Virus record (IMG/VR): IMGVR_UViG_3300042335_000105
Span: 1 to 25,760 of that record
Direction: 5' to 3' (one strand)
DNA length: 25,760 bases
Origin: a virus
The notes below the pieces were generated by a model. It did not search any database. It was not told where the DNA came from and worked only from the letters and a program-made list of their open reading frames with translations. A program made the position numbers and the translations under genes. Shown here in pieces: positions 385 through 19,831 of the stretch. Position 1 is the stretch's first letter. Each line of letters starts with the position of its first letter.

Positions 385-708
385 GCATATTTTTTTGGAT
401 TTTTCAAATATAGTTTCATGCCAAACAACAAAATAATTTCTATAATTCTTTGGCACAGTATTTGCTACACACACTCATATACGAACACTGATCGTAAGTC
501 TATGGTACGTAAGGGTTTACGACGAACGAGGCCCGCCCTAATGGATATATGGTAAGATGGGTACTCTAGGGGGTTTTATCTTATAAATTCGATTTTCTCA
601 GCCGCCCGAAAAAACCGGGGGTGGTTCATACACAATATCCAAAAATATTAATTATGTATTACCCAATCCTTCCTCATCGCCTCCTTCTAGCAGCAATTAT
701 TTCTTCTG

Positions 709-720
709 GTGTATATTATA
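709..720 (+). promoter_or_regulatory. Late-promoter-like element upstream of the gene at 735
   Basis: GTGTATATTATA matches the element before the genes at 9799 (GTGTATATTA), 12861 (GTGTATATAA) and 19832 (GTGTATAAATA). A start about seven bases after the AT core would fall inside the AAGGAG ribosome binding site (723-728), closer to the gene than in the other cases. The TATAAATT octamer at 582-589 is therefore an alternative late promoter for this operon. The motif resemblance is seen directly; the promoter function is inferred. Confidence 0.35.
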
Positions 721-734
721 GTAAGGAGTTTATT

Positions 735-908
735 ATGATTAAGAAAACAACAATTGAATCACAATTAGATTGTAGGGCAACTGCGGCTCTCCGTAGCTCA
801 ATAGCTGAAGATTTATCCAAACCCGATAAGCCCATAGCTGATATACTATCAAAGGACGAGGGTGAGGAAAAGGATGAATCTCAAGACGAGTCTAACAACA
901 GCAATTGA
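735..908 (+). CDS. Small acidic hypothetical protein, 57 aa
   Basis: The ATG at 735 has a textbook AAGGAG six bases upstream, which decides the start over the upstream ATG at 621. The 57-residue product begins MIKKTTIESQ and ends in a highly acidic, low-complexity tail (residues 40-57, mostly Asp, Glu, Ser, Asn). The next gene starts inside this tail and overlaps it by 35 bases, so the two are probably translationally coupled. It is the first gene of the rightward late cluster. No family is recognised; the tail is likely disordered. Confidence 0.6.
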   Translation: MIKKTTIESQLDCRATAALRSSIAEDLSKPDKPIADILSKDEGEEKDESQDESNNSN

Positions 909-1650
909 GCTAGGAAACATTAGCTCAGACGATAATATTGAATTACTAGGAGTTGAGCCGCTAAAGCTTGTTAATCAAGCCCTATACTTTGCTATCGAAA
1001 ATAAAGATATAACGCCCCAACACACATTTAAATCCACATTTGGCCCCGATGTTCTATTCTTTTATGCCCTAGAACAAGTTAAAAATAATTCTGTTATAAA
1101 GTATGAGCGCGGAATTGGTTACTATTTTGAGCAAAATAATAAATCTTTCTTAAAAAGACATATACCAATAGCGACCGGCTCAAACTCCCAGAATAGCTCT
1201 ATTTGTTCTGGAGGTTGCACCAAATTTAATTGCACAGAATGTGATCACTTAATAGTTTATTCCACTGTTCCTATAACTTATGCAGAGTGTTTAATACATA
1301 AAAACTCTATTATAACTTCTGCTAATCCTTTTCAGCCCCACTCATTTGTTGTTGAGGAAAACTCACTTGTTGGAAGACTTGGCGACAATGTTGGCTCTAT
1401 ATCTTTAGAAGATAAGAATTTTATAGATTCTTTAGTCTCTTCTATTTGTCAATTCTCTAAACAGATAGTTCTTAAAACAAGCAAGCTTATTTGCAAACGC
1501 GCCCAAGTTGATATACTAGATTTTCTTCCATCCTCTAACCCAAAAGCTAAAAAGGGTTCTTTATATTATGATAATGACTCTAATACCCTTAAAGTTTATG
1601 ACGGTAATAAATGGAAAACATTATCTTATGTTGATGAGGACTCTGAATGA
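874..1650 (+). CDS. Putative virion protein with Cys cluster, 258 aa
   Basis: The start is placed at ATG 874 because GAGG lies six bases upstream; a GTG at 862 in the same frame is less likely. The protein has a four-cysteine cluster (C111, C115, C120, C123; spacing C-x3-C-x4-C-x2-C, with H125 nearby) that could bind zinc. Its C-terminal segment (about residues 228-252) follows the pattern GSLYYDNDSNTLKVYDGNKW, a short 'label' motif often found at the ends of phage fibre and structural proteins. There is no signal peptide or membrane helix. Its stop overlaps the sigma factor start as ATGA. It could be a virion component or a regulator; the structural reading rests only on the C-terminal motif. 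Confidence 0.6.
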   Translation: MNLKTSLTTAIELGNISSDDNIELLGVEPLKLVNQALYFAIENKDITPQHTFKSTFGPDVLFFYALEQVKNNSVIKYERGIGYYFEQNNKSFLKRHIPIATGSNSQNSSICSGGCTKFNCTECDHLIVYSTVPITYAECLIHKNSIITSANPFQPHSFVVEENSLVGRLGDNVGSISLEDKNFIDSLVSSICQFSKQIVLKTSKLICKRAQVDILDFLPSSNPKAKKGSLYYDNDSNTLKVYDGNKWKTLSYVDEDSE

Positions 1651-2153
1651 AAATTCCCAAGAAAATGACCCAACAAGAGATTATAGATCAAATTACTATA
1701 GTAGTTAATCGCATCGCCCCCAAGTATACATTTAATGGATATGACATTGACGATATAAAACAAGAGGCTTTTATTATATGTATGGACGCCCTTAATAGAT
1801 ATGACAACAATCGCCCCCTAGAGAATTTCTTATCAGTTCATCTTAGTAATCGCCTTAAAAATTTTATAAGAGATAATTATTACTCAAAAGATGAAGAAGA
1901 AAAGAAAAAAATATTAAAACCCAAAAGTTTATCTGATGAAGACTTTGTTCCGATTAGTCATTACAACTATGATCAAGATGACGCTATAGACGCTAAGAGT
2001 ATTCAAAATATATTAGATAAATATTTACCAGCATCCTATAGGGCGGATTACTTAAAACTTATTAATGACGTTTATGTTCCTAAGAAAAGACGCGAAGAAG
2101 TAATAGAATTAATAAAGGAAATAGTGGAGGCCCACAACGATGAAGAAGGGTAG
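1647..2153 (+). CDS. 55: Late-transcription sigma factor, T4 gp55-like
   Basis: This 168-residue protein carries a sigma region 2-like core: DIDDIKQEAFIICMDALNRY at residues 33-52, then a segment near 56-76 with an RPLENFL motif and Arg/Lys-rich helix ending FIRD, parallel to regions 2.1-2.2 of sigma70. A classical region 4 is not evident, as in T4 gp55, and the length is close to gp55 (185 aa). In T4, gp55 directs core RNA polymerase to TATAAATA late promoters and contacts the gp45 sliding clamp through its C-terminus; here the C-terminus (about 150-168) is a helix with an acidic tail. Late-promoter-like motifs elsewhere in the window support the call. The start overlaps the upstream stop as ATGA. 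Confidence 0.82.
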   Translation: MKIPKKMTQQEIIDQITIVVNRIAPKYTFNGYDIDDIKQEAFIICMDALNRYDNNRPLENFLSVHLSNRLKNFIRDNYYSKDEEEKKKILKPKSLSDEDFVPISHYNYDQDDAIDAKSIQNILDKYLPASYRADYLKLINDVYVPKKRREEVIELIKEIVEAHNDEEG

Positions 2154-2925
2154 ACTCTCTAAAGAGGAAATACGCTTTATATCGGCTAGTTTAGATAGCT
2201 TAACTACAGATGATATTGCTAAGAAGCTAGACCGCGATGTTGAGTCTATAGAGGCGTTCATTAAGCGAAAATTGAAAAAGGGGCTTTCTATAGAAGAAGA
2301 GGTAGCCTTTGAGTTAGAAGATCGCCCATACTGGAAAGAGTTAGAAAGTCAATTCACATTAGAAGAACTAGAATTATTTAAATATCACTGGACTAGGATT
2401 ATAGCACAGTTCAAAGACGATGTATTCCCCACAGAAGAACTTCAAGTTGTGGATGTTATTAAGTTAGAAATACTTATGAATAGATGTTTAAAAAGTAATA
2501 AAGATAACATATCGGAAATGAGCGTTATTGAAAAATTAATTCGTGATGAGCGCGCCGTAGACAAGGATCAGCGCGATCAAGATTATATTATGAATATGGA
2601 GAGACAAATGGCGGCGCTGCGTGCTAGTCAAGAAAGTCTTAACCGCGATTATCGTGAACTTCAAACAAAAAAAGCCGCTATGCTTAGAGAAATGAAGGGA
2701 ACTAGAGAGCAGCGTATTAAGCGACTAGAAGATAGTAAACAAAGTTTTACATCTTGGATCGCTACTCTTATCCAAAATCCAGAAACCATGAAACAATATG
2801 GTATAGAAATGGAAAAGATGAAGATGGCAATGAAGAAGGAAGAACAAAGATTAAGCGCCTATCATAAATATGAAGATGGACAAATCGATCAACCGTTCTT
2901 AACGCCAGATACAGTGCAGGACTAA
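2140..2925 (+). CDS. HTH and coiled-coil protein, candidate small terminase subunit
   Basis: The 261-residue product has a likely helix-turn-helix at residues 5-45 (LTTDDIAKKLDRDVESIEAF is the recognition part), a central helical domain (62-118) with PYWKELESQF and FPTEELQVVDVIKLEILMNR, and a long charged coiled coil at about 140-200 with further helix to 240. DNA-binding N-terminus plus oligomerising coiled coil is the usual plan of phage small terminase subunits, which recognise packaging sites and stimulate the large subunit encoded three kilobases downstream. The gene overlaps the sigma factor by 14 bases and has a GGAGG upstream. It is not a clear match to a named family from sequence alone; a transcription regulator is the alternative. 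Confidence 0.55.
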   Translation: MKKGRLSKEEIRFISASLDSLTTDDIAKKLDRDVESIEAFIKRKLKKGLSIEEEVAFELEDRPYWKELESQFTLEELELFKYHWTRIIAQFKDDVFPTEELQVVDVIKLEILMNRCLKSNKDNISEMSVIEKLIRDERAVDKDQRDQDYIMNMERQMAALRASQESLNRDYRELQTKKAAMLREMKGTREQRIKRLEDSKQSFTSWIATLIQNPETMKQYGIEMEKMKMAMKKEEQRLSAYHKYEDGQIDQPFLTPDTVQD

Positions 2926-2943
2926 CATACCACAGGAGAGAAT

Positions 2944-4035
2944 ATGAACGCTATTATATTTGGTATTACGGGACAGGATGGAAGCCACTTAGCCGACCTT
3001 TTATTAGAAAAGGGTTATGACGTTTTAGGTGTTGCGCGACGATCAAGCGTAGATACCTCAGAAAGAATAAAACACCTTAAAAATAATAGTAGATTCAAGC
3101 TAGTCGAGGGTGACATCACGGACTATAGTAGCATTTTGCATGTATTTCAGAATTACGCCTATGTAGATGAAATCTACAACTTAGCTGCCCAATCCCACGT
3201 AGGCACTTCCTTTACTCAGCCGGGACTAACTTGGGATATTACTGGCAAAGGGTGCATGAATATATTACAGGCTATTATTGATTCAAACGCATATCCAGCA
3301 CGATTTTATCAAGCTTCATCTAGTGAAATGTTTGGAGATTCTTATGATATTGGGGTAGATGGCGAGAGATATCAAAATGAAAATACTAGATTTTTACCGC
3401 AATCCCCATACGCTATATCAAAGTGCGCTGCCCATTATGCCGTGAGATTATACAGAGAAGCATATAACTTACATGCAAGTGCCGGAATTCTATTTAACCA
3501 CGAAGGCCCAAGGCGCGGAGATAACTTCGTAACCAAAAAGATCACAAATTGGATTGTAGATTTTAAAATATGGATCGACAATAATGGTCTTGGTCCAGAT
3601 GATTTAATATCCGATGGAGATCTGATATATTCTAAATCTTTAACTCAAAATAGACCAAAATTAAGACTAGGAAATCTGGACGCCTTTAGGGATTGGGGTT
3701 ACGCTGGAGATTATGTAGAGGCTATGTGGCTTATGCTACAGCAAGAAACTCCAGATGATTATGTGATATGTACGGGTAAAACATATACAATTAGAGAGTT
3801 CTTAAATCATGCATTTGGATATATTGGTGTATCTGATTGGTCACCATATGTTACGGTTGATCCAGCATTTTATAGACCAGCTGAAGTGAATTATCTCAGA
3901 GGTGATTCATCTAAAGCTCAAACAAAGCTAGGATGGACCCCAAAGTACGATCTAAAAAGTTTAATTTCATTAATGATAGACGATAGAACAAATGAGAAAT
4001 TATCGAATAATGTTAGACATCTCAAATGTGTTTAA
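2944..4035 (+). CDS. gmd: GDP-mannose 4,6-dehydratase
   Basis: This is a full-length (363 aa) short-chain dehydrogenase of the extended type. It converts GDP-D-mannose to GDP-4-keto-6-deoxy-D-mannose, the precursor of GDP-fucose, GDP-rhamnose and perosamine. Visible signatures are the nucleotide-binding GITGQDG (7-13), NLAAQSHV (79-86), the catalytic QASSSEMFG (123-131, Ser instead of the more usual Thr), YAISK (156-160), ILFNHEGPRRGDNFVTKKI (182-200), LGNLDAFRDWG, and YFRPAEV-like FYRPAEV. Compared with bacterial enzymes there is an extra segment of roughly 25 residues between the VTKKI helix and LGNLDA. A strong AGGAG precedes the ATG. It is an auxiliary metabolic gene placed among packaging genes, probably for host-surface or virion glycan change. 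Confidence 0.93.
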   Translation: MNAIIFGITGQDGSHLADLLLEKGYDVLGVARRSSVDTSERIKHLKNNSRFKLVEGDITDYSSILHVFQNYAYVDEIYNLAAQSHVGTSFTQPGLTWDITGKGCMNILQAIIDSNAYPARFYQASSSEMFGDSYDIGVDGERYQNENTRFLPQSPYAISKCAAHYAVRLYREAYNLHASAGILFNHEGPRRGDNFVTKKITNWIVDFKIWIDNNGLGPDDLISDGDLIYSKSLTQNRPKLRLGNLDAFRDWGYAGDYVEAMWLMLQQETPDDYVICTGKTYTIREFLNHAFGYIGVSDWSPYVTVDPAFYRPAEVNYLRGDSSKAQTKLGWTPKYDLKSLISLMIDDRTNEKLSNNVRHLKCV

Positions 4036-4240
4036 CAGAATAAAACATTTATCGTTGAGATCATATAATGCACCATTTCCAACGGTATTCATATCAGCTA
4101 CAGATCCAGATGAAGCTTGTAGATTAGCGTTGGATGAATTAATTACCATCATTCTGCATCAAAATCCTTCAATAAAAATGAGAATAATATGTAGAGAGAT
4201 TAAAAGGCGATGTCGAATAGATAAAATATATATTTTATGA
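4010..4240 (+). CDS. Small conserved-looking phage protein, 76 aa
   Basis: This small basic protein overlaps the end of gmd by 26 bases and its stop overlaps the HNH start as ATGA. It contains FISATDPDEACRLALDELI and a basic C-terminus (MRIICREIKRRCRIDKIYIL). The ATG at 4010 is chosen, but the ATG at 3992 in the same frame is possible; neither has a good Shine-Dalgarno, so translation is probably coupled to gmd. The sequence has the feel of a small helical phage protein seen near packaging genes, but I cannot name a family. Function unknown. Confidence 0.6.
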   Translation: MLDISNVFNRIKHLSLRSYNAPFPTVFISATDPDEACRLALDELITIILHQNPSIKMRIICREIKRRCRIDKIYIL

Positions 4241-4497
4241 AACGTAATTATAATGACCCAGCATACGAAACTTTTAGAAAAGCCGTATTAAAACGCGATG
4301 GATATAAATGCAGAATGCCTGGATGTACGTATACCAAAAAATTACAGGTACATCATATTAGAAAGTGGTCAACCGCTTCATCATTAAGATATGAAATATC
4401 TAATGGTATTAGCCTATGTCCAAACTGTCACAGGTCTATCAAAAACCAAGAACATCACTACGAATCCTTATTTATGGAAATAGTCAATGGCATATAA
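4237..4497 (+). CDS. HNH endonuclease
   Basis: This is an 86-residue single-domain HNH nuclease. The beta-beta-alpha metal fold is shown by C25/C30, LQVHHIRKWS with the HH at 39-40, the central Asn in SNGISL (56), and CPNCHRS (61-67) followed by H73/H74. Four cysteines in two pairs indicate a structural zinc. It has no intron-homing DNA-binding extension, so it is not a typical group I intron or free-standing homing enzyme. Small HNH proteins encoded beside the terminase assist DNA cleavage at packaging in HK97-like phages, and this one lies about 1.1 kb upstream of the large terminase gene. No ribosome binding site is visible; translation is likely coupled to the preceding gene. Confidence 0.88.
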   Translation: MKRNYNDPAYETFRKAVLKRDGYKCRMPGCTYTKKLQVHHIRKWSTASSLRYEISNGISLCPNCHRSIKNQEHHYESLFMEIVNGI

Positions 4498-4987
4498 ACA
4501 AGCTCCATCATTTATAGTGATCAAAGATACCAGAGAGCAAGATGGCTATTATTTTAAGCCACATAATACTTGCGCTGGCATGATTGATAAAAAACTAGAT
4601 ACCGGAGATTATTCTATACAGGGATTAGAAGACAAACTATGTATAGAACGCAAAGGGTGCGTAGAAGAACTAGCCATGAATCTGGGACAGAAAAAATATG
4701 CGTTTTTAGATGAAATAGCAAGAATGTCAGATTTTCCACACAAATATTTAATATTAGAATTTTCTTTAGAAGATCTTATTAAGTTCCCAGATGAAACTAG
4801 AATACCAATAAAAAATAAAGCATCAGTAAAGATTACTGGTAAGTATATGTTAAAATGCTTGTGTGAATTTGAATTATACAATAATTTACACGTATTATTT
4901 TGTGAAAATAAATATAATGCTTTTATTATGGTTAGCAGTATCTTAAAAAGAATAAATGAAATGTACACCATAGGGAGAAAAGAGTAA
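4487..4987 (+). CDS. ERCC4/XPF-fold nuclease
   Basis: The 166-residue product carries the ERCC4 nuclease signature: IKDTREQ (12-18), LDTGDYSI (38-45) and IERKG (53-57), matching the GDx(n)ERK active site of XPF/Mus81-type enzymes, which cleave branched DNA. The residue after ERKxxx is Glu rather than the usual Asp. There is no C-terminal tandem helix-hairpin-helix, so it is a minimal nuclease domain. It overlaps the HNH gene by 11 bases and the ClpP-like gene by one base (TAATG), so it belongs to the packaging operon. It could resolve recombination or replication branches ahead of packaging, as T4 endonuclease VII does; that role is inferred. Confidence 0.85.
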   Translation: MAYKQAPSFIVIKDTREQDGYYFKPHNTCAGMIDKKLDTGDYSIQGLEDKLCIERKGCVEELAMNLGQKKYAFLDEIARMSDFPHKYLILEFSLEDLIKFPDETRIPIKNKASVKITGKYMLKCLCEFELYNNLHVLFCENKYNAFIMVSSILKRINEMYTIGRKE

Positions 4988-5628
4988 TGGCTGAACCAGA
5001 ACTTCTGAAAGATTTCCATGAATATGGTGCTAATATTACAACAAGAGAAATATTTCTCCATAATCACTACCATTCTGAAGATAATCAAAATCCTGGCGTA
5101 GAATATAGAATGTCCAACACTTTTATTAAGAATTTAAGAGCATTGGACATGAGGGCGAATGCAAATATAACTATTCATTGCCACAGCATTGGTGGGGAAT
5201 GGTCCGATGGTATGGCAATTTATGATGCTATTAAGATGTGTAGATCTTATGTTACAATGATTATATATGGTCAGGCTGAATCTATGAGCAGTATCTTTAT
5301 GCAAGCAGCAGACTATAGATATATGACTCCAAGTTCACATTTTATGTGTCATTATGGATCATCAGATATTAATACTGACTATTTAAGCGCCATGAATCAG
5401 GCTCGTTACGAAGAAAGAACCGCAGATACTATGTTTAATGTTTACGCTAGTAGATGTGTTGAAGGCAAATTCTTTGCGGAAAAATTTGGTAAAAAACCAA
5501 GCGAAAAACAGGTTAAACAATATTTGATAAGAAAACTCAAGTCTGGAGATTGGTATTTAAGTGCCGAAGAAGCCGTATACTATGGTTTTGCCGACGCTGT
5601 TCTAAATAATTGGCATTTTACTGAATGA
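4987..5628 (+). CDS. ClpP-like serine protease
   Basis: This 213-residue protein matches the ClpP/crotonase-fold serine peptidase. The catalytic triad is in place: S99 in YGQAESMSS (ClpP has GxAASMA), H122 in MCHYGSS, and D188 in GDWYLSAEEAVYYGFAD, which parallels the ClpP DRxLSAxEAxxYGLxD segment. ITIHCHSIGGEWSDGMAIYD (61-80) corresponds to the oxyanion loop and first helix. In many phages such proteins are maturation proteases fused or adjacent to portal or capsid genes, but here a separate prohead protease exists at 9799. This enzyme sits directly before the terminase (ATGA overlap), so its target may be another host or virion protein. It could also act with the host Clp machine. Confidence 0.87.
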   Translation: MAEPELLKDFHEYGANITTREIFLHNHYHSEDNQNPGVEYRMSNTFIKNLRALDMRANANITIHCHSIGGEWSDGMAIYDAIKMCRSYVTMIIYGQAESMSSIFMQAADYRYMTPSSHFMCHYGSSDINTDYLSAMNQARYEERTADTMFNVYASRCVEGKFFAEKFGKKPSEKQVKQYLIRKLKSGDWYLSAEEAVYYGFADAVLNNWHFTE

Positions 5629-7607
5629 AAAATAAACTTAAGCATATAGACGAAGCTTGGCTTGGACTAGATACATTAGATGCTGATGTATTTAATCCTA
5701 TGTGTATTATTAGACCTTCTGATGAAGATTTTCATCTTAGGTTAGCTTGGCTTATGAGTAGGCCAGAATATCTTTCATTTTTTGCTCAACATATATTAAA
5801 TATTCAGCTATTACCGTCTCAGGGATTGATTATTAAAGAACTATGGGAAAGAAAATTCCCTATGCTTATTGCTAGTCGAGGATTTGGTAAATCTTTTAAA
5901 TTAGCTATCTATTCTATGCTTAGAGCATTAATGTATCCTAGGCGCAAAATTGTTATTGTTGGCGCGGCATTTAGACAGTCTAAAGTTGTTTTCGAATATA
6001 TGGAAACGATATGGCGCAATTCTCCAATGTTAAGAGACATATGTGACTCAGATAGTGGCCCACGCAGAGATACAGATCGATGCGTTATGAGAATAAACGA
6101 CAGTGTTATAACGTGCCTACCTCTTGGCGACGGTCAAAAGATTAGAGGTCAACGCGCTAACGATATTATTGCTGACGAATTCGCGTCTATACCAAGAGAT
6201 ATTTTTGAAAACGTGGTGGCTGGTTTTGCCGCTGTTAGCGCTGATCCGGTAGCAAATGTTAAGCGATTAGCCGCGCAAAAAAAAGCAAAAGACCTTGGTG
6301 TAGAAATTATAGCAGAAGATGCTCCCAAAGATCAAAAAGACAATCAAATTATCCTATCTGGAACAGCGTATTATGACTTTAATCACTTTGCTACATACTG
6401 GAAGAAATGGAAAGCCATAATAAAGAGTAGAGGCTCTCACAACAAACTAAAAGAAATTTTTAATGGTGAAGATCCGCCAGAGAATTTTGATTGGACGCAA
6501 TATTCTATTATAAGAATGCCATATGAATTACTACCTCCGGGATTTATGGATGCTGATCAGGTTGCTAGATCAAAAGCCACGGTTCATGCTGGTATTTATC
6601 AAATGGAGTATGGAGCATGTTTTACTAGAGACAGTCAAGGCTTTTTCAAGCGCTCTCTTATAGAGTCATGCGTTATCAAGAATGATAATCCTATTAAAGA
6701 TAGTAAAGGAAATATTATAGAATTTTCCGCGTCTTTAATGGGCGATCCACATAAAAAATATATTTTTGGAGTTGATCCAGCATCAGAAGTAGATAATTTT
6801 AGTATTGTTGTATTAGAAGTTAATCCAGATCATAGAAGAATAGTACACTGCTGGACAACAACAAGATCAGAACATAAAGAATTAATTAAAAAGGGATATT
6901 CCACAGAAACAGACTTTTATTCTTATTGCGCTAGAAAAATTAGAGATTTAATGGTGCTGTATCCATGTATTCACATATCTATTGATGCTCAAGGTGGCGG
7001 TATTGCCGTTATTGAATCATTACACGATAACGATAAGTTAAAAGATGGTGAATTACCAATATGGCCAATAATAGATGATGATAAACCTAAAGATACAGAC
7101 GGCGAAAGAGGACTACATATTATAGAACCGTGTCAATTTGCTAGATACGAATGGCTATCAGAAGCTAATCACGGCATGAGAAAGGACTTTGAGGACAAAG
7201 TTCTACTATTTCCATTCTTTGATGCTATTTCTATTAGTCTCTCTAATGTAGAAGATTCTATTAAACATAGAATGTATGATACACTAGAAGAATGCGTTAT
7301 GGAAATAGAAGAACTAAAAGATGAATTGGCCATGATACAGATGACACAAACAAATGGCGGCAGAGACAGATGGGACACTCCAGAATTAATTGTTGGCACA
7401 GGCAAGAAAAGTAAAATGAGAAAAGACCGCTACTCTGCCCTACTAATGGCAAATATGGCAGCAAGAGTATTACAAAGAACACCAGAGCAGGAGGCTTATA
7501 ACTTTTATGGCGGATTTGCTACCGGTGGACACATATCTAAAAGCGAAAATGCCAAACTTTACAACGGACCCAGCTGGTTCACTGAACAGATGAAAGATGT
7601 GTATTAA
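5625..7607 (+). CDS. terL: Terminase large subunit
   Basis: This 660-residue DNA-packaging motor has an N-terminal ATPase with Walker A ASRGFGKS (83-90), Walker B IIADEF (181-186, with the catalytic Glu) and a coupling-type LSGTAYYD segment near 245. The C-terminal RNase H-like nuclease has its acidic residues in FGVDPASE (D384), ISIDAQGGG (D454) and KDRYSALLMA (D601). It pumps DNA into the prohead through the portal encoded next and cuts the concatemer. Its length fits phage large terminases. The start overlaps the protease stop as ATGA. The stop lies inside a GTGTATTAATTA sequence that may be a promoter for the portal gene. Confidence 0.95.
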   Translation: MKNKLKHIDEAWLGLDTLDADVFNPMCIIRPSDEDFHLRLAWLMSRPEYLSFFAQHILNIQLLPSQGLIIKELWERKFPMLIASRGFGKSFKLAIYSMLRALMYPRRKIVIVGAAFRQSKVVFEYMETIWRNSPMLRDICDSDSGPRRDTDRCVMRINDSVITCLPLGDGQKIRGQRANDIIADEFASIPRDIFENVVAGFAAVSADPVANVKRLAAQKKAKDLGVEIIAEDAPKDQKDNQIILSGTAYYDFNHFATYWKKWKAIIKSRGSHNKLKEIFNGEDPPENFDWTQYSIIRMPYELLPPGFMDADQVARSKATVHAGIYQMEYGACFTRDSQGFFKRSLIESCVIKNDNPIKDSKGNIIEFSASLMGDPHKKYIFGVDPASEVDNFSIVVLEVNPDHRRIVHCWTTTRSEHKELIKKGYSTETDFYSYCARKIRDLMVLYPCIHISIDAQGGGIAVIESLHDNDKLKDGELPIWPIIDDDKPKDTDGERGLHIIEPCQFARYEWLSEANHGMRKDFEDKVLLFPFFDAISISLSNVEDSIKHRMYDTLEECVMEIEELKDELAMIQMTQTNGGRDRWDTPELIVGTGKKSKMRKDRYSALLMANMAARVLQRTPEQEAYNFYGGFATGGHISKSENAKLYNGPSWFTEQMKDVY

Positions 7608-7609
7608 TT
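7599..7609 (+). promoter_or_regulatory. Weak late-promoter-like element at end of terL
   Basis: GTGTATTAATT overlaps the terminase stop codon and resembles the GTGTATAWWA element found before three other late genes. It lies about 50 bases before the portal start, in line with their spacing. The match is the poorest of the set and half of it is coding sequence, so it is reported with low confidence. Confidence 0.25.
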
Positions 7610-7615
7610 ATTACG

Positions 7616-7637
7616 CAATCCAATTACAATCCAATTG
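7616..7637 (+). repeat. Tandem 11-base direct repeat in the portal leader
   Basis: CAATCCAATTA (7616-7626) is followed directly by CAATCCAATTG (7627-7637), two 11-base units differing only in the last base. One unit equals about one helical turn, so a protein could bind both on the same face; it may instead be chance duplication. It lies between terL and the portal gene, just before GAGG. Confidence 0.6.
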
Positions 7638-7651
7638 AGGTAAATGTAAAT

Positions 7652-9751
7652 ATGAGCGATGAATTTAGCGATATGATAACGTGGTCAGATGATAATCTAC
7701 CAAGTAAAGCTCAAGCAATGTCGCAGCTTTCTAACAATATAAATTCTTATAGCGGTCTACCAAAATCTCAAGGTTCTACTTATCGTAATTTTATAGATAT
7801 TGAACCTAATCGCTCTGTACGACCACAATTTGGTCCTTCTGATTACTATAGTTTTAGACCGAATGAAGCTGTACCAAGTCAGCAACGTAAAATCATTAAG
7901 ATGTGCATGGACGCATATGATAAAGTTGGTATTATTAGAAATATTATAGATTTGATGGGTGATTTTGGTAGTCAAGGTATAGAAATTATACATCAAAACA
8001 AAAGCGTTGAACGTTTCTATCAACAGTGGTTCAGAAATGTCAACGGTAAAGAAAGATCAGAAAGATTTTTAAATAATCTCTATAAAACTGGCAATGTGAT
8101 AACTTATCGCAGTTATGCCAAAGTTACTCCACAGTTAGAGAAATATATGAAGTCTCTAGCTGCTGATATTAAGGTTGAAGTTCCTAACATTTCACAAAAA
8201 GAAATACCCTGGCGGTACAATTTCTTTAATCCATTAAATGTTAATCATAAAGATGGACAATTATCAATATTCTTAGGCTCACCGTCATACACCATTAATC
8301 TTGGTACATTCTTTGATAGATTCACGGATGGGGATGTTCCAAACGATGTGCTGAATACATTACCAGATAATATCAAACAAGCTCTTAAAAGCGGTCAAAA
8401 GCAAGTTCAGCTAGACACTGATCGGCTTAATGTTTTTTACTATAAAAAAGATGATTGGCAGATATGGGCCAATCCAATGCTTTATGCTATTCTTGATGAC
8501 ATTATTATGTTAGAAAAAATGCGCCTTGCTGATATGTCAGCATTAGATGGTGCAATCTCTAATATAAGACTATGGACTCTTGGTAGTCTAGAACATAAGA
8601 TTTTACCAAATAAAGCCGCTATTAATAAATTAAGAGATATTTTAGCTAGCAATGTTGGTGGCGGAACGATGGAGCTAGTTTGGGGTCCAGAATTAACATT
8701 TAAAGAGTCAAGTAGTGAAGTTTATAAATTCTTAGGATCAGAAAAGTATACAGCAGTTTTAAATAGCATTTATGCTGGACTAGGCGTTCCTCCAACACTT
8801 ACTGGCATGGCTACCAACGGCGGCGGCTTCACGAATAACTTCATCTCACTTAAAACTCTAGTAGAAAGACTTCAGTACGGAAGAGATTTATTAGTTAAGT
8901 TTTGGGAAAAGGAAATAGAGATTGTTAGAAAGGCTATGGGTTTTAGACATAAGGCTCATATTAAATTTGATCAAATGAGTTTATCTGACGAAGCATCTGA
9001 AAAAAATCTACTTATTCAATTAGCTGATAGAGATATTATTAGTCAAGAAACTCTACTTCAAAGATTTAAAGAAATTCCGCAGATCGAACATATTAGACTA
9101 CAAAGAGAAGTAGAAGATAGGAATGATGATAAAAACCCCAAGAAGGCTGGGCCATATCATACTCCGCAGCATAAAGAAAATCTTGAAAAAATCGCACTAC
9201 AAAGTGGACAGGTCTTACCACAAGATGTTGGCATTAAGACTAGCGTACCTAAAGATTTATTAATGCAACCTAAAGCGCCTTCTACTCCAGGCGGTGGCTC
9301 TTCTCCATCTCCAAAAGCTCCAAACTCAAATGGTAGACCAGCAATGAAACAGGATCAAAATCCTAGAAAACAAAGAATCGCTAAACCAAAATCTAAACCC
9401 GGAGTTGCAGAACTCATGGTTTGGGCAGAAGAGTCTTGGGACACAATATCCTCTATTTTAAATGACGCCTTTCTTAATCAAAATAATAAAAAAAATTTAA
9501 GACAATTAACTAAAGCTGAGTTCAATAACCTAGAACAATTAAAATTAGATGTATTAACTAATTTAGAGCTTTTATCTAAAGCTGATGCAAGCACCATCTA
9601 TAGCATCCTCAAAGATAAGAAGCAAACCCCAAAAGAGTTTATAGACTTATTAAATAATAATAATATTAATTTGGATTCCATGAGTGTTGAAAAATATCGT
9701 AGAAATGTTTTAGGATTATATGTAGAACACAACGCCTTTTTTAAAAGTTAA
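7652..9751 (+). CDS. Portal protein with C-terminal extension
   Basis: This 699-residue protein is placed directly after terL. The portal core is visible as an N-terminal wing (about 75-160), a central part with WANPMLYAILDDIIMLEKMR (272-291), the crown-to-stem region with SIYAGLGVPPTLTG (372-385) and NNFISLKTLVERL (395-407), then LIQLADRDIISQETL and KAGPYH (about 454-503). Portals form the dodecameric ring at the capsid vertex through which DNA passes. After residue 535 comes a Pro/Gly/Ser-rich, basic linker (to about 585), then a separate helical domain of about 110 residues. The extension makes it longer than most portals. The ribosome binding site GAGG is 11 bases upstream, a little far. 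Confidence 0.92.
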   Translation: MSDEFSDMITWSDDNLPSKAQAMSQLSNNINSYSGLPKSQGSTYRNFIDIEPNRSVRPQFGPSDYYSFRPNEAVPSQQRKIIKMCMDAYDKVGIIRNIIDLMGDFGSQGIEIIHQNKSVERFYQQWFRNVNGKERSERFLNNLYKTGNVITYRSYAKVTPQLEKYMKSLAADIKVEVPNISQKEIPWRYNFFNPLNVNHKDGQLSIFLGSPSYTINLGTFFDRFTDGDVPNDVLNTLPDNIKQALKSGQKQVQLDTDRLNVFYYKKDDWQIWANPMLYAILDDIIMLEKMRLADMSALDGAISNIRLWTLGSLEHKILPNKAAINKLRDILASNVGGGTMELVWGPELTFKESSSEVYKFLGSEKYTAVLNSIYAGLGVPPTLTGMATNGGGFTNNFISLKTLVERLQYGRDLLVKFWEKEIEIVRKAMGFRHKAHIKFDQMSLSDEASEKNLLIQLADRDIISQETLLQRFKEIPQIEHIRLQREVEDRNDDKNPKKAGPYHTPQHKENLEKIALQSGQVLPQDVGIKTSVPKDLLMQPKAPSTPGGGSSPSPKAPNSNGRPAMKQDQNPRKQRIAKPKSKPGVAELMVWAEESWDTISSILNDAFLNQNNKKNLRQLTKAEFNNLEQLKLDVLTNLELLSKADASTIYSILKDKKQTPKEFIDLLNNNNINLDSMSVEKYRRNVLGLYVEHNAFFKS

Positions 9752-9760
9752 AGTATTTTT

Positions 9761-9770
9761 GTGTATATTA
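9761..9770 (+). promoter_or_regulatory. Late-promoter-like element before protease/capsid operon
   Basis: GTGTATATTA follows a run of five T's in the 47-base gap between portal and protease. A start seven bases after the AT core would give a leader of about 22 bases to the ATG at 9799. It is nearly identical to the elements at 12811 and 19782 and fits recognition by the gp55-like sigma factor encoded at 1647. It would drive protease, scaffold, decoration and capsid genes. Confidence 0.55.
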
Positions 9771-9798
9771 ATTTGAGACACTATAAGGCAACTTTTAA

Positions 9799-11226: not shown

Positions 11227-11245
11227 TTTAACAAGGAGAAAAACT

Positions 11246-11713
11246 ATGGCCCTAAAAACAGATAGATACGAGCTTCAAACTGATATCAGTTTCTTCTACA
11301 ACGAAGGTGCTGCTACTCGCGGTGGCGTTGTTGTACATGATACAGCCGGTTCGGGAGCCGCTATGGATCAGGGTGTTAACCTTGTGAAGTATGCTCAAGT
11401 TACTTCGGCTAGTCGCCCAGTAGGTATCCTACTAAACGACGTTGTAAATAAGGATCTAACCCGTACTCATCTTAATCAACACAAGGACGAAGTACAAAAG
11501 GGTGGTAAGGTTACAGTACTCCGCAAGGGCTACGTTGTAACAAATAGTCTTACTGGTAACATTAACGCTGGCGATCCAGCTTATGCTTGCCATGTAACGG
11601 CTGGAAATCTTCGTGCTGATAGCCCAGGTAGTTCTGGTGTTCTACAGGTTGGCCGTTTCTTATCCGGCAAGGATGAAGACGGTTATGCCAAAGTAGAAGT
11701 TAACCTCCCCTGA
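11246..11713 (+). CDS. Probable capsid decoration protein
   Basis: This 155-residue protein lies between scaffold and major capsid genes, with AAGGAG before the ATG. It is rich in Gly, Val, Thr and Asn and looks all-beta: TRGGVVVHDTAGSGAAM (24-40), ASRPVGILLNDVVNKDL (55-71), GGKVTVLRKGYVVTNSL (86-102), NAGDPAYACHVTAGNL. Small beta-rich proteins in this position decorate or stabilise the capsid shell in many phages, like lambda gpD or DUF2190-type proteins. Its codon usage (CGT/CGC for Arg, more GC) matches the major capsid gene and differs from the rest, consistent with very high expression. Function comes from position and fold appearance, not a firm family match. Confidence 0.65.
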   Translation: MALKTDRYELQTDISFFYNEGAATRGGVVVHDTAGSGAAMDQGVNLVKYAQVTSASRPVGILLNDVVNKDLTRTHLNQHKDEVQKGGKVTVLRKGYVVTNSLTGNINAGDPAYACHVTAGNLRADSPGSSGVLQVGRFLSGKDEDGYAKVEVNLP

Positions 11714-11741
11714 TAATAAATTAAACAAAGGAGAATCAAAC

Positions 11742-12749
11742 ATGCCAAATAATAAAAGACCTAGCGATGAGTTTATCGCTCTCCTACGTAAGTCAGGGGA
11801 TGCCGATATCAATGTAGCTGCTGCTGCTCAACGTGAGTTTGCAAAGGCTCTAGAGCTTCCCTTACGTAAGGGTGTTCTAGTCGGTAATATTCTTGGTTCT
11901 ATCTTCGAAACCATCAACGTCGAACCCGGCGCAACAACCGAGTATCCTCTTGATCTAGTTTCACCCGGCCTTGAAGGTGAGCATGTTGCTTACACCAATC
12001 CCGGTCACGGTAGAATTCCAGAAAGATCAGTCGAAGGCGACTATGTGATGATTCCAACATACAGCATCACATCTTCGGTTGACTATCTACTTCGCTATGC
12101 CCGCGAAGCCAGATGGGATATCGTTGGTCGTGCCATGCAAGTCATGGAAGCTGGTTTTACCAAGAAGATGAACGATGACGGCTGGCACACACTTCTTGCT
12201 GCTGGCGTTGATCGTAACATTCTAGTTTATGACGCTGATGCTACAGCCGGTCTATTCAGCAAGAGACTCGTTTCTCTTATGCAGACCGTTATGCGTCGTA
12301 ATTCTGGTGGTAATAGCGCCTCTGTCGGTCGTGGCCGTTTAACCGACATGTATGTTAGCCCAGAAGCCCTAGAGGATGTTCGTAATTGGGGCTTAGATCA
12401 AGTTGACGAAGTAACTCGTCGTGAAATTTACACCGCTTCTGAAGGTGGCGCTCCCATCACAAGAATCTTTGGTGTTAATCTTCATGATCTTGATGAACTT
12501 GGCGAAGGCCAAGAGTATCAGAACTTCTTCGTGAACGATCTAGGTGGTGCTGTTCAAGCTAGCGATCTTGAACTAGTTGTTGGCCTTGACCAATCAACCA
12601 GTGATAGCTTCGTAATGCCCATGAAAGAGCAACTCCAAGTATTCGAAGATCCCACCTTACATCGTCAGCAGCGCGCTGGCTATTATGGATGGGCTGAACT
12701 TGGTTTCGGTGTTCTTGATAATCGTAGAGTCATTCTTGGCTCATTCTGA
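11742..12749 (+). CDS. Major capsid protein, HK97 fold
   Basis: This 335-residue protein has the position, length and end motif of an HK97-fold capsid protein. N-terminal helix about 8-50, a beta-rich E-loop/P-domain region with TTEYPLDLVSPGLEGEHVAY (65-84), a long spine helix near 119-145, a C-terminal A-domain, and the closing strand GYYGWAELGFGVLDNRRVIL. It assembles with the scaffold into the prohead. At 335 residues it is much shorter than T4 gp23. AAAGGAG precedes the start. Arg codons are mostly CGT/CGC and GC is higher than in the neighbours, a mark of translational selection. A strong terminator follows 27 bases after the stop. Confidence 0.9.
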   Translation: MPNNKRPSDEFIALLRKSGDADINVAAAAQREFAKALELPLRKGVLVGNILGSIFETINVEPGATTEYPLDLVSPGLEGEHVAYTNPGHGRIPERSVEGDYVMIPTYSITSSVDYLLRYAREARWDIVGRAMQVMEAGFTKKMNDDGWHTLLAAGVDRNILVYDADATAGLFSKRLVSLMQTVMRRNSGGNSASVGRGRLTDMYVSPEALEDVRNWGLDQVDEVTRREIYTASEGGAPITRIFGVNLHDLDELGEGQEYQNFFVNDLGGAVQASDLELVVGLDQSTSDSFVMPMKEQLQVFEDPTLHRQQRAGYYGWAELGFGVLDNRRVILGSF

Positions 12750-12775
12750 TCTAAGAACATTTAGTTTCTGAAATT

Positions 12776-12809
12776 AAGCCACCCTCATTTGCTTGGGGGT
12801 GGCTTTTTT
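12776..12809 (+). terminator. Strong intrinsic terminator after the capsid gene
   Basis: AAGCCACCC (12776-12784) pairs perfectly with GGGTGGCTT (12797-12805) around a 12-base loop, and the arm is followed by a T run to 12809. This nine-pair stem with U-tract is the clearest terminator in the window. It should end most capsid transcripts and isolate head genes from the tail/fibre genes that start 50 bases later. Confidence 0.9.
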
Positions 12810-12810
12810 C

Positions 12811-12820
12811 GTGTATATAA
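12811..12820 (+). promoter_or_regulatory. Late-promoter-like element before fibre operon
   Basis: GTGTATATAA begins one base after the terminator's T-run (with a single C between), so transcription would stop and restart at the same point. A start near 12827 gives a leader of about 34 bases to the ATG at 12861. It is one of the three best matches to the recurrent GTGTATAWWA element. Confidence 0.55.
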
Positions 12821-12860
12821 CATTAGAAAAGTCTATAACGACTCTAATTAGGAGAAAAAT

Positions 12861-13553
12861 ATGGCAGCATTATCGGATTATTTGGAGTCGGGTTTACTTA
12901 ACCATATCTTTAGAAATGCAGCATTTGCTAAACCCTCCACAATTGCAATCGCTTTAACTAGCGGAGTACCTTTAGATTCTAATACTGGCTCTACTATTCC
13001 AGAGTTACCGTCTGGAGTAAGCAAGGGTGCAAATTTTGTTAGCACGAATTATAAAAGAGTAAATTTAGGTGATCCATCTACTAATGGTAACACTGTTTGG
13101 AATTCTGTTGGTGTTGATGATACAACCACTTTTTCAGTATATGGCACAAGTAGTTCTGGAAATACTGTTGGCATGAGTGGATATTTTTATCCATTATACT
13201 TAAATCAAACTACTGCTTTAGCAGCATCTACTGGATTTACTCAATCGTATAGATTCACAGAATTCCCCAACGTTACATTTTATGCGCCCACAAACCTACA
13301 ACAGTCTGGAGTAGCTACAGATCCAGGCTATGTCAAATATGATGGTAATGGATTTATTAAAAATGCATCACAAATAGTATTCGATACCGCTCTAACAGAT
13401 TGGGGATGGGTTTCTGGTATAGCCATTGTGGATACAGCAAATCATGCTTCTGGTAATTTATTAATGTATGCTAAGTTAGAAAATCCTCGGTATATCTACA
13501 CTGGTGATAATATCAAGTTTGATATTAACTCTCTAGAAATAAGTTTAAAGTAG
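12861..13553 (+). CDS. Gp80-like tail/fibre-associated protein
   Basis: The 230-residue protein opens with MAALSDYLESGLLNHIFRNA and PSTIAIALTSG (25-35) and closes with a segment from WVSGIAIVDTA (about 183-193) through NLLMYAKL to TGDNIKFDINSLEISL. These ends match the small phage 'Gp80 / tail fibre' protein family, whose core is a compact beta sandwich. The centre is longer than usual (about 45-170), with a Gly/Ser/Thr-rich inserted region. AGGAG precedes the ATG. It is the first gene after the late-promoter element and is probably a virion appendage or decoration component. The exact site in the particle is not known from sequence. Confidence 0.65.
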   Translation: MAALSDYLESGLLNHIFRNAAFAKPSTIAIALTSGVPLDSNTGSTIPELPSGVSKGANFVSTNYKRVNLGDPSTNGNTVWNSVGVDDTTTFSVYGTSSSGNTVGMSGYFYPLYLNQTTALAASTGFTQSYRFTEFPNVTFYAPTNLQQSGVATDPGYVKYDGNGFIKNASQIVFDTALTDWGWVSGIAIVDTANHASGNLLMYAKLENPRYIYTGDNIKFDINSLEISLK

Positions 13554-13554
13554 C

Positions 13555-16776: not shown

Positions 16777-16787
16777 GGACTTATGTT

Positions 16788-19031
16788 ATGCCACAAGTCC
16801 AAACGGATTATGTAAAACCTTGTGATCCATTTATTGATTTTACAACATCAACATCGTCCACAACAACGTTGCCCCCAACGCTAGAATACTTTTCTTTACC
16901 AATAAGCGGCGTTCAGTGTCCATATGATCCATGTATATGTGGATCACTCTTCATTCCGGCTGGGAAAAACTATAATCCTAGCGGAAGTTATATAAGTATT
17001 AATAATACGTCATACTCTTTGGTCAATAACTCAAATTCTTTTTTAGAAAAAGAGCAACTATTCGTAGCTACAACTCAAAAACTAGTACCATCAGAATCTA
17101 GCAATTTAACAGCAGCAAATATTGATATATATCTAGGATCAAGCATTAATTTGATCAATGTTGTACAAGTTATCATAAAAATTAGAGAAACTAAAAAAAT
17201 TATCGGTCAAGTTATTGTTGGATCATTTGATTCTTTAACAAATCTAGATCGATTATCAGTTCCTCTTATAGATACTTTTAATTTGTCTAACCTAACATTA
17301 CAATGTGAAATTTCTAGTTTGTGCAAAAATTCTAAAGCAATATGCTGTGATAGATTACCAAGTTCTGTTACATTAACTAATATAATTAGTAATATATATT
17401 GTACTACCACCACAACGCTTCCGCCGTTTTGTACAAATTTTAATTTACCAGATATATTTTATATGACTATTAAAGGTTATGGCTTATTGGGTGGTCAGGA
17501 AGACTATAATCTTGTTCAGCGCACTGGTAATACGTGGTATACCAGCGGATCTTTTCCGTGCGGAGCTAATTATTATATTAGTATGACCTGTAATCCTACC
17601 TTGCAGTTGTTTACTTATGATGGATATATAGATTGCTGCGAAGAATCCACCAAAGTTATTATATCCCCCACACAAACTCCATATCTATATCCAAACGGGA
17701 TTACACCACCTATACTATCTTATAGCGATTGTTTTTGTGATTTAAGATGTTCTACGACCACATCAACTTCCACAACTACTACAGATTTTCCAACAACCAC
17801 AACAACTCCACCACCAATCCCGTGTGAAGAAACAACAAGTTTCACCATAAACGGTTATGCGTTTTATAGATATAGTGCTGGGACAGTTGATATCCCTGGT
17901 ATTGGCCCGTTAAACATACCTTGTTATGGTGGCCATGTTTGTAATGGAACTAATTTTATTCCACAAATTATTACTCCACGCAAAACCTTTACCGCTTCAC
18001 AAATTTCATTAAATAATTCTCCCGGAGGAGGCAATAGAAGTCAAACATTTAGTTTCTTTATAGATGATGCATCACTATTATCTAACGGAGCGTCTGTTAG
18101 TTTGAAGTGCGCAGATAGTAGTTGTCATAACGGTGTAACATTTGTTGTATTAACAGTAGATATAAATGGACAAACGGTACTACTATTTAATAGTTGCATA
18201 TTACCAAACTCGTTAGATAATTTAAATTTCGAATGCATAGACTGCTGTGATTGGGATGGGGATGGTACGCTACAATTTAATAATATATGTGACGGACTTA
18301 CTAAGTCGGCACAGTTCTATAAAATTGCTGATAATTTATGGGAATGCGATGTTGATATTGATTGCGGTGATCGTATAAACATGATTATAAAATGTAATTC
18401 GGATATCAAGTTTGATCCAGAAGCAACAAATTTAGATCTATTATGTAAACAAAAATGGGAGCTTGTTAATTTTAGTTTTCCGTGCGCAGTTAATCCAAGG
18501 TGGACGGGAAATCTATTAAGTTTATGTGATTGTGATAAACCTCCAATATTTGAACTTACGGCTGACAGTGTAATTAATTGCAATTGTTGCGACGATGGGT
18601 ATCATTATGCAATAATGATTTGTAATAGTAATAGCGCCAGAGATGACAACTTTGATATTACGCTTAATAACACAGTTGTACATAACTTGAATTTATCTGC
18701 CGAAGGAGTTCTTAACGGATGTTTTCTAAGAACTCATCCACTCATTACTAGCGCAGATATCTGTGATCTTTACTCTGGCACTTTTTGTATGTGCGTCACA
18801 AGTCAATATATGTTTATAGGTGATATTGATCGTGATCTCTTTTTATCCGGCAATAATAGCCTAGATATGATTAATGCTGGAGCAAACCTTAATGGAAATT
18901 ATGGATTAGTAGGCGTTTGGAAATTTCAAATAGTAAATAATACCATTATTTCTACTACCAGTTTACTTAATAGTGAGTATAACGGTGGGAATGGTGTATC
19001 TTTCAATTACACATTTAACAATCCAGAATAA
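16788..19031 (+). CDS. Thr-rich, Cys-rich multidomain virion protein, 747 aa
   Basis: Beta-rich domains are separated by mucin-like threonine linkers at about 19-31 (TTSTSSTTTLPPT), 205-213 (CTTTTTLPP) and 321-345 (Thr/Ser/Pro run). I count about 42 cysteines, many in pairs (CC at 186, 283, 486, 600). A domain is duplicated: NTWYTSGSFPCGANYYISM (249-267) followed by TCN, and NLWECDVDIDCGDRINMI (516-533) followed by IKCN, with identical spacing W-x7-CG and C-x9-CN. No signal peptide or membrane helix is seen. No named family is recognised. Position between a long fibre and a discoidin protein, plus a similar Thr linker in the next gene, suggests a receptor-binding appendage. GAGGA precedes the start. 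Confidence 0.7.
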   Translation: MPQVQTDYVKPCDPFIDFTTSTSSTTTLPPTLEYFSLPISGVQCPYDPCICGSLFIPAGKNYNPSGSYISINNTSYSLVNNSNSFLEKEQLFVATTQKLVPSESSNLTAANIDIYLGSSINLINVVQVIIKIRETKKIIGQVIVGSFDSLTNLDRLSVPLIDTFNLSNLTLQCEISSLCKNSKAICCDRLPSSVTLTNIISNIYCTTTTTLPPFCTNFNLPDIFYMTIKGYGLLGGQEDYNLVQRTGNTWYTSGSFPCGANYYISMTCNPTLQLFTYDGYIDCCEESTKVIISPTQTPYLYPNGITPPILSYSDCFCDLRCSTTTSTSTTTTDFPTTTTTPPPIPCEETTSFTINGYAFYRYSAGTVDIPGIGPLNIPCYGGHVCNGTNFIPQIITPRKTFTASQISLNNSPGGGNRSQTFSFFIDDASLLSNGASVSLKCADSSCHNGVTFVVLTVDINGQTVLLFNSCILPNSLDNLNFECIDCCDWDGDGTLQFNNICDGLTKSAQFYKIADNLWECDVDIDCGDRINMIIKCNSDIKFDPEATNLDLLCKQKWELVNFSFPCAVNPRWTGNLLSLCDCDKPPIFELTADSVINCNCCDDGYHYAIMICNSNSARDDNFDITLNNTVVHNLNLSAEGVLNGCFLRTHPLITSADICDLYSGTFCMCVTSQYMFIGDIDRDLFLSGNNSLDMINAGANLNGNYGLVGVWKFQIVNNTIISTTSLLNSEYNGGNGVSFNYTFNNPE

Positions 19032-19032
19032 T

Positions 19033-19770
19033 ATGCTAAAAGTAGCAGATATTAATATCTCTGAAGACAACTGTGGACTCTATGTAATTAAATTATATGG
19101 AAATGATGCAATATATTTTCAAGTAATAGATAAATCGCTTTATTTTCTTTTAACAGAACCTAATATATGTAAAAATTTATATAAAGTCACTATTTCGGTA
19201 GAAGATTTAGCCGGACGATTTACTCCAAAAGTAACATCTTACTCATTAAATACATATAATTGTATATGTACGTCCACAACTACTAGTACCACCCCATCTC
19301 CTACAACTACTAGCACATCCACTACCATCGCCCCGTTTGTATATCCTAGTAATATAGTGTCTACTAATGCTATATATACCCAGTCTTCAGTTTGGTCAGA
19401 AAATACTTTTGCTACCGCACTAGGCATGAACAATCAAATAGCGTCAGAAAGTTTTCAAACCGGAACAAATCTCGGAACATCTGAGTGGATTAAAATGGAA
19501 TTAAATGCAATATATAATATTAAAAATATTGTTGTGGGATGTGATTTCAATAATACTTTACGTTTTGGCTGGGGTAAATCATATACAGAAAACTTACTAA
19601 TTCAGTATTCTCTAGATAATTTTACGTGGGTTAATGCTGCAAATACCGGTATTTTTATTACCCCCATGAAAGTATATCCTGTTAATTTTAATGCAAGATA
19701 TATTAGATTAACTAATTCTAATAAAGGTAACACATGGATGGCGGCTACAGAGTTTGCTGCTGGGATATAG
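19033..19770 (+). CDS. Appendage protein with C-terminal F5/8 type C (discoidin) domain
   Basis: The ATG at 19033 lies one base after the preceding stop and is preferred over an in-frame GTG at 18973 inside the upstream gene. The 245-residue protein has a beta-rich N-terminus (1-78; YKVTISVEDLAGRF resembles cadherin-like strands), a Thr/Ser/Pro linker (80-100) and a C-terminal discoidin-like domain (104-245): EWIKMELNAIYNIKNIVV (151-168), LLIQYSLDNFTWVNA (188-202) and ARYIRLTNSN (221-230) follow the F5/8 type C order. Such domains bind sugars or lipids on cell surfaces, so this is a candidate host-receptor binding module. The linker resembles those in the preceding protein, with which it is probably cotranslated. 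Confidence 0.78.
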   Translation: MLKVADINISEDNCGLYVIKLYGNDAIYFQVIDKSLYFLLTEPNICKNLYKVTISVEDLAGRFTPKVTSYSLNTYNCICTSTTTSTTPSPTTTSTSTTIAPFVYPSNIVSTNAIYTQSSVWSENTFATALGMNNQIASESFQTGTNLGTSEWIKMELNAIYNIKNIVVGCDFNNTLRFGWGKSYTENLLIQYSLDNFTWVNAANTGIFITPMKVYPVNFNARYIRLTNSNKGNTWMAATEFAAGI

Positions 19771-19781
19771 TGTATTTTTTA

Positions 19782-19792
19782 GTGTATAAATA
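19782..19792 (+). promoter_or_regulatory. Late promoter with exact TATAAATA core
   Basis: GTGTATAAATA in the 61-base gap includes TATAAATA (19785-19792), identical to the T4 late promoter consensus octamer, preceded by a T run. A start near 19799 would give a leader of about 33 bases to the ATG at 19832. Two further GTGTA copies flank it (19770 and 19804). The same octamer also occurs by chance inside coding sequence at 19898 and 25288, so intergenic position and the GTG prefix carry the argument. Confidence 0.6.
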
Positions 19793-19831
19793 TATGTAAT
19801 TTCGTGTAATTTCTATTCATAGGAATATTCT

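Follow-up and report, generated by a model that had tools for sequence, protein, structure and literature searches.

A recurrent promoter-like element at gene-block starts and a predicted region 2 sigma factor in an uncultivated lineage of tailed phages

The IMG/VR virus record IMGVR_UViG_3300042335_000105, a stretch of 25,760 bases called the window here, encodes a small sigma factor and carries five copies of a short element with the consensus GTGTATAaTa. No larger genome stands behind the record. A preliminary description of this DNA had proposed a phage late sigma factor with a recurrent promoter element of its own in intergenic gaps. The present analysis of the window and its relatives supports this in part, namely as to a phage sigma factor and a recurrent promoter-like element that opens gene blocks.

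Gene blocks and element copies in the window

The element copies, numbered P1 to P5, and the genes around them are listed below. The names of the GDP-mannose dehydratase-like and HNH genes come from inspection of their translations.

709 to 718, plus strand: P1 element, GTGTATATTA; 26 nt before the ATG at 735, at the head of the operon that holds the sigma gene
735 to 908, plus strand: first open reading frame (ORF) of the P1 operon, 57 amino acids, with an in-frame ATG at 735; conserved in relatives
877 to 1650, plus strand: second ORF of the P1 operon, without a Pfam match; overlaps the start of the sigma gene (ATGA)
1647 to 2153, plus strand: sigma factor, 168 amino acids; region 2 (residues ~2-79) and a three-helix C-terminal part
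2140 to 7607, plus strand: rest of the P1 operon; an ORF without assignment, a GDP-mannose dehydratase-like gene, a small ORF, an HNH gene, an ERCC4-type nuclease, a Clp protease and the large terminase (terL)
7599 to 7608, plus strand: P2 element, GTGTATTAAT; before the portal gene, inside the last terL codons and stop (Val GTG, Tyr TAT, TAA)
7652 to 9751, plus strand: portal protein, named by its position after the terminase and its conservation; no Pfam or PHROG match
9761 to 9770, plus strand: P3 element, GTGTATATTA; 38 nt before an ATG, at the head of the prohead protease, cement and major capsid block
9799 to 12749, plus strand: P3 block; putative prohead protease/scaffold (9799, named by position), cement protein (11246) and major capsid protein (11742)
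12776 to 12810, plus strand: intrinsic terminator with a 12-bp stem and a T tract, directly before P4
12811 to 12820, plus strand: P4 element, GTGTATATAA; 50 nt before the ATG of the gp80-like head/fibre gene
12861 to 13553, plus strand: gp80-like virion protein (Pfam Gp80, E 3.4e-22), first gene of the P4 block
19782 to 19792, plus strand: P5 element, GTGTATAAATA; 50 nt before the ATG at 19832

Each of the five copies named in the preliminary description lies where it had been placed (709, 7599, 9761, 12811 and 19782). On checking the coordinates, the copy at 709 was read as GTGTATATTATA and that at 7599 as GTGTATTAATT, while those at 9761, 12811 and 19782 read GTGTATATTA, GTGTATATAA and GTGTATAAATA. 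Over all five copies, the element stands 26-53 nt before a start codon. The last three strong copies do follow T runs, as had been described, but their distances to the ATG codons at 9799, 12861 and 19832 are 38, 50 and 50 nt rather than 39-51. Two further weak copies occur near P5 (GTGTATT at 19770 and GTGTAAT at 19804). In all, the 19832 gene is preceded by three GTGTA copies within 35 bases (window 19770-19809), a cluster that may reflect tandem starts or the decay and replacement of a promoter.

In the window the pattern GTGTATAWWA matches three times where 0.69 would be expected, each time on the coding strand, and 2 of 100 shuffles reach three. This mildly unusual excess is suggestive, and the window count is weak by itself; relatives were therefore used. 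The T4-type late sequence TATAAATA is not enriched (three matches in the window against 6.5 expected). The copy at 19782 does contain it, at 19785-19792, but this is the only copy that happens to read so, and TATAAATA was rejected as a real motif here. The element had been taken for TATAAATA with a GTG prefix distinctive of this phage. The GTG does belong to the most invariant stretch; the consensus is GTGTATAaTa rather than a prefixed TATAAATA, and it belongs to a large lineage rather than to one phage.

Conservation and anatomy of the element

With the terminase as query, at least 595 related contigs of viral origin were found; 80 of them, at 75-100% identity, were kept as set 1 (0.9 Mb together with the window). 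A motif search across the window and these relatives placed the copies at orthologous unit starts and not scattered: the coding strand has 130 occurrences of GTGTATA and the other strand 28, and most copies in the relatives precede orthologs of the genes that follow the window copies. When non-redundant orthologs in set 1 were examined for GTGTA(A/T)(A/T) within 150 bases upstream, the element was found at 19/19 first genes of the P1 operon, 63/63 portal genes, 40/40 protease genes, 22/24 gp80 genes and 2/2 orthologs of the 19832 gene (3/5 in another count). Genes internal to the operons gave 0/31 (cement), 0/29 (capsid) and 0/59 (clp), with nearly all others at 0 to 1, and terL gave 5/67. A second set of contigs, fetched with the sigma protein and partly overlapping the first, returned the same picture, with the element at P1 in 44/44, at portal in 52/53 and at protease in 28/28, as against 1/59 for sigma, 0/18 for cement and 0/56 for clp.

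The element also emerges when no motif is named in advance. The most enriched upstream 7-mer is GTGTATA at P1 and gp80 and TGTGTAT, a shift by one base, at portal and protease; at positions outside those four, the leading enriched k-mers differ from the element. Among 75 core orthogroups of long relatives, where a 7-mer was counted as conserved if present in at least 75% of members, GTGTATA ranks first, being conserved upstream of six orthogroups, followed by its own overlap with three and unrelated 7-mers with up to two. Among 6-mers, GTGTAT is first (8) and the ribosome-binding AGGAGA is the next named (6). No element was found before the DNA polymerase (DnaE), DnaB helicase and nuclease genes (three genomes each). 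A position weight matrix (PWM) scan of whole genomes at score 9 gave no overall excess over reversed sequence because the true sites are few and are outnumbered by short chance matches within coding DNA, and the ortholog test took its place.

The copy at 7599 had been ranked as weaker in the preliminary description, a ranking overturned by the 63/63 portal orthologs and by selection at the DNA level, which show it to be a genuine site. This copy reads through Asp GTG TAT TAA of terL. The last-but-one residue of TerL is Val in 61 relatives, encoded by GTG in 61/61, whereas at other positions of these genes GTG accounts for 9.3% of Val codons; the terminal Tyr codon is TAT in 61/61, against 73% elsewhere. 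In three relatives TerL ends in Ile-Tyr, and relatives of this kind carry GTGTATAAT right past the stop codon. The codon bias and the displaced element together indicate that it is the nucleotides, not the amino acids, that are kept.

Conservation extends to two distant sets whose terminases are 52-61% identical to that of the window and whose sigma factors are ~30% identical. There GTGTA is found after terL in 57/57 and 47/48, after the capsid gene in 40/42 and 21/25, and ahead of the protease gene in 39/52 and 32/32; at all three places the leading unbiased 6-mers are GTGTAT or GGTGTA. The element thus persists in clades with a sigma factor only ~30% identical. The observation of a recurrent element is confirmed as real, and the preliminary description had understated it.

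Aligned sites give the consensus GTGTATAaTa; some are preceded by T-rich sequence, and a conserved -35 element is not seen. The most invariant part is GTGTA, and the last bases of the hexamer vary (TATTAA at portal, GTGTAC or GTGTAG in distant clades). The commonest form is GTGTATAAT, which holds a perfect TATAAT. At the four well-sampled sites, matches to TTGACA at 15-19 spacing come close to the number expected from shuffled sequence; at protease, five or more of six bases match in 5/59 against 1.4 expected, mostly by T-run chance. Downstream of the element lies a TAGA-like block, which at gp80 orthologs has T.96, A.78, G.78 and A.87 at positions 13-16 from the first G and at portal orthologs T.87 and A.73. 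With TATAaT (positions 3-8) as the -10 hexamer and its last base at -7, position 15 would be +1, and it is mostly a purine. P4 stands directly after the intrinsic terminator, for which GGGGTGGCTTTTTT is conserved in relatives, and this placement fits a fresh start of transcription.

The sigma factor and its proposed role

The gene at 1647-2153 had been described as a gp55-like sigma factor. Sigma region 2 is indeed encoded there: Pfam Sigma70_r2 (PF04542) matches the window protein at E 5.7e-7, above the cut-off, and is found in 28/28 homologs, and in an AlphaFold model (mean predicted local distance difference test score 78) residues ~2-79 match sigma domain 2 at 1.9-2.8 Å. A Pfam search of 28 members at E ≤ 1 detected no Sigma70_r4, and the 57-residue C-terminal part, which may yet be a degenerate region 4 or gp55-like, gave no significant fold match when modelled alone. 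Membership in the gp55 family did not hold, and gp55 serves as an analogy only. T4 gp55 matches phrog_234 at E 2.9e-69, and neither the window sigma nor those of three relatives match that family; by phmmer, hmmsearch, hhalign and PHROGs, homology to gp55 was absent or insignificant (hhalign probability 3%). There is a weak match to phrog_1740, the family of phiEco32 gp36 (E 2.7e-4 for the window sigma; 1.4e-5 to 0.03 with relatives included), and a similarly weak one to phrog_351. Each of the 8 long relatives has exactly one region 2 gene, and the sigma gene occurs at 82/82 loci whose sequence extends 6.5 kb or more upstream of terL (25/25, 35/35 and 22/22). The sigma segment RPL(E/D)NF...NRL.N..RDN is kept across the clades of ~30% identity.

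Phage sigma factors with -10-only promoters are already known, and what is new here is the distinct consensus and the unusual depth of conservation. T4 gp55 is a region-2-only sigma factor with a helical C-terminal addition and -10-only promoters (PMC2988020, PMC7892883). The window system resembles it in these features and in serving virion genes, but its sigma lies outside the gp55 family, no gp45 clamp was found in the relatives searched, and its consensus is not TATAAATA and has an invariant GTG. Another precedent is phiEco32 gp36, a sigma factor without region 4 that works on host RNA polymerase (RNAP) at the single element tAATGTAtA, with no -35 and with starts 6-8 bp downstream, and this element precedes middle and late genes of the phage (PMC8948821). 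Common to both systems are a single element without a -35 and a TGTATA core; in the window sigma, too, no region 4 was detected, and its match to phrog_1740 is weak. The window consensus, however, begins with GTG and ends in aTa rather than beginning tAA, with different flanks; its 168-residue sigma has no significant pairwise similarity (hhalign 0.5%); and the lineage is distinct, with a DnaE-type polymerase and a sigma gene inside the packaging operon. Phage 7-11 gp47 likewise sends host RNAP to late genes (PMC8948821), but its promoters are bipartite, GTAAtg-(16)-aCTA, where there is one element here. Bacterial extracytoplasmic function (ECF) and sigma70 proteins share the fold of residues 2-79 and the Sigma70_r2 match but differ from the window sigma, for which no region 4 or -35 element was detected. 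When the literature was searched for GTGTATA or GTGTATAAT in the role of a phage late promoter, the matches were incidental only, one of them lying within a predicted sigma70 promoter of pf16.

We consider it probable, at about 85%, that GTGTATA(A/T)(T)A serves the virion gene blocks as a -10-type promoter made of a single element and is read by the phage's region-2-only sigma factor on host RNAP. As to mechanism and ALTERNATIVES, the phage sigma would reprogramme the host core RNAP to single-element promoters, with GTGTA at about -15 to -11, the -10-like TATAaT at -12 to -7 and no -35 used. Transcription would start at a purine in the TAGA-like block, ~6 bp downstream of the element. The five promoters would then define five units, namely the sigma/terminase operon, the portal gene, the protease-capsid block, gp80 and the virion genes after it, and the 19832 block. 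Since the sigma gene lies inside the P1 operon, the factor, once produced, would boost its own synthesis. As for a phage-encoded RNAP that could read the element, relatives yielded no multisubunit RNAP gene, and the search for a single-subunit RNAP had no working positive control. The small sigma protein, carried by this phage and hundreds of relatives, probably gives the transcription machinery of the host a new direction, and GTGTATA, which recurs before each virus-building block, looks like a switch for late expression, "late" being a designation taken from gene content.

Host sigma70 promoters of the ordinary kind, having a strong -10 (TATAAT) and a G/T-rich upstream extension and needing no phage sigma, could account for the TATAAT in GTGTATAAT. 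They could also account for TTGACA-17-TATAAT at P1 of relative L082, which belongs to the window's clade, and for the TTGACA-N-TATTAT promoters that precede the sigma operon in clade B and several other distant contigs. A canonical extended -10 is TGnTATAAT, from which GTGTATAaTa differs. Such promoters are unlikely because it is GTGTA that is invariant and not a -35 or the last -10 base; in addition, none of the four sites shows clear -35 enrichment, and the element is found selectively at virion gene blocks and is missing before the DnaE, DnaB and nuclease genes. That the element is an RNA-level signal, a processing or protein-binding site in 5' leaders, agrees with its position 26-53 nt before start codons, the usual zone of leader signals, but P4 adjoins the end of an intrinsic terminator, a place that calls for renewed initiation, the purine block at fixed spacing and the -10-like core favour initiation, and the element tracks the sigma gene, which together make this reading very improbable.

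A true T4-type late system, with a gp55 homolog, TATAAATA promoters and activation by the gp45 sliding clamp and gp33, would share the region-2-only sigma, the -10-only promoter and the virion genes, and one copy does read TATAAATA. T4 gp55 is likewise region 2 plus a helix-loop-helix (PMC7892883), and it appears in the weak Foldseek list of the model (7d7c_F, rank 41, E 1.6). The missing phrog_234 match, the hhalign value and the consensus speak against such a system. Clamp activation of the T4 kind is unlikely because no gp45 or beta clamp was found in 8 possibly incomplete relatives, in a search that did find T4's own gp45, and because the relatives have a DnaE-type polymerase; we regard a T4-type system as highly improbable. 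Chance or a coding-sequence artefact might be suspected from the small excess in the window alone and from the overlap of the 7599 copy with terL codons, but it is refuted by the ortholog counts and by a codon choice far from background, and its probability is next to negligible.

Several points weigh against the main reading. The link between sigma and element comes from their co-occurrence and from precedent. A few sites precede genes that are not obviously virion genes, including two conserved ones before thioredoxin-like and HNH genes. At P1, where the first synthesis of sigma is concerned, TTGACA matches at five or more of six bases occur in 2/47 against 1.1 expected. The relatives are non-independent samples, and the first five to seven columns of the site matrices are fixed by the search pattern, so that the evidence for GTGTA invariance is the ortholog count and not the matrix.

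Judging from these host-type promoters of the sigma operon, the first sigma may be made by host polymerase, after which control would pass to the element; no such -35 is seen at the window's own P1. In clade B (L203, L208 and L210-L218) the sigma operon promoter reads TTGACA-N-TATTAT/TATAAT with GTGTA inside the spacer and is possibly a dual host/phage promoter. A broader proposal, to which we give somewhat less than even odds, is that a region-2-only sigma with a new C-terminal domain and a GTG-led -10 form a deeply frozen, lineage-wide pair. GTGTA would have stayed constant while the sigma diverged to ~30%, and the entry to the circuit would have been re-wired between clades, with an autoregulated GTGTATA at P1 here and a host TTGACA-type promoter elsewhere.

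Neighbouring features and the phage lineage

A second strongly conserved block occupies window 617-690 and reads GGGGTGGTTCA..ACACAAT..ATGTATTACCCAATCC..CCCC.ATCGCCCC. It sits at the point of divergence between the early and late arms. In most relatives it precedes P1 by 90-129 nt, but in L082, L005 and L020 the distance is 748-1359 nt, so that the block is independent of P1. Rfam gave no match in the region before P1, and a structured RNA was rejected for the block (7 pairs, no compensatory change or covariation). The GDP-mannose 4,6-dehydratase-like gene (2944-4035) lies between sigma and the packaging genes and holds the same place in distant clades (L123, L124). Two ORFs of virion-like character in window 16788-19770 contain many cysteines and have Thr/Ser/Pro-rich linkers (TTTSTSTTT); they occur in only 1-3 of 81 contigs.

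With respect to the host, the 136-kb relative G002 carries Planctomycetes-typical PSCyt1/PSCyt2/PSD1 (DUF1549/DUF1553) and DUF1501 genes (L091:549-4567), which stand behind a thioredoxin-like gene with its own GTGTATA site and are either a host clue or auxiliary metabolic genes. The terminase relatives L122, L123 and L124 occur in metagenome-assembled genomes of SAR202, Flavobacteriales and Gemmataceae, host calls that disagree, and at least two of them probably result from faulty binning. No isolate in the phage collection searched is close, the best matches being ~28% for terminase and 23% for capsid.

The lineage is a large and widespread one of uncultivated tailed phages, so far unstudied. 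The element would provide a readable late-gene signal for this very abundant lineage, for which the collections searched offered no close cultured member, and with such a signal transcription units and virion gene blocks could be called directly from metagenomic DNA. The system would also be an independent further example of single-domain phage sigma factors, one with a distinct consensus, and its hundreds of natural sigma-promoter pairs may show how region 2 alone reads a -10 element.

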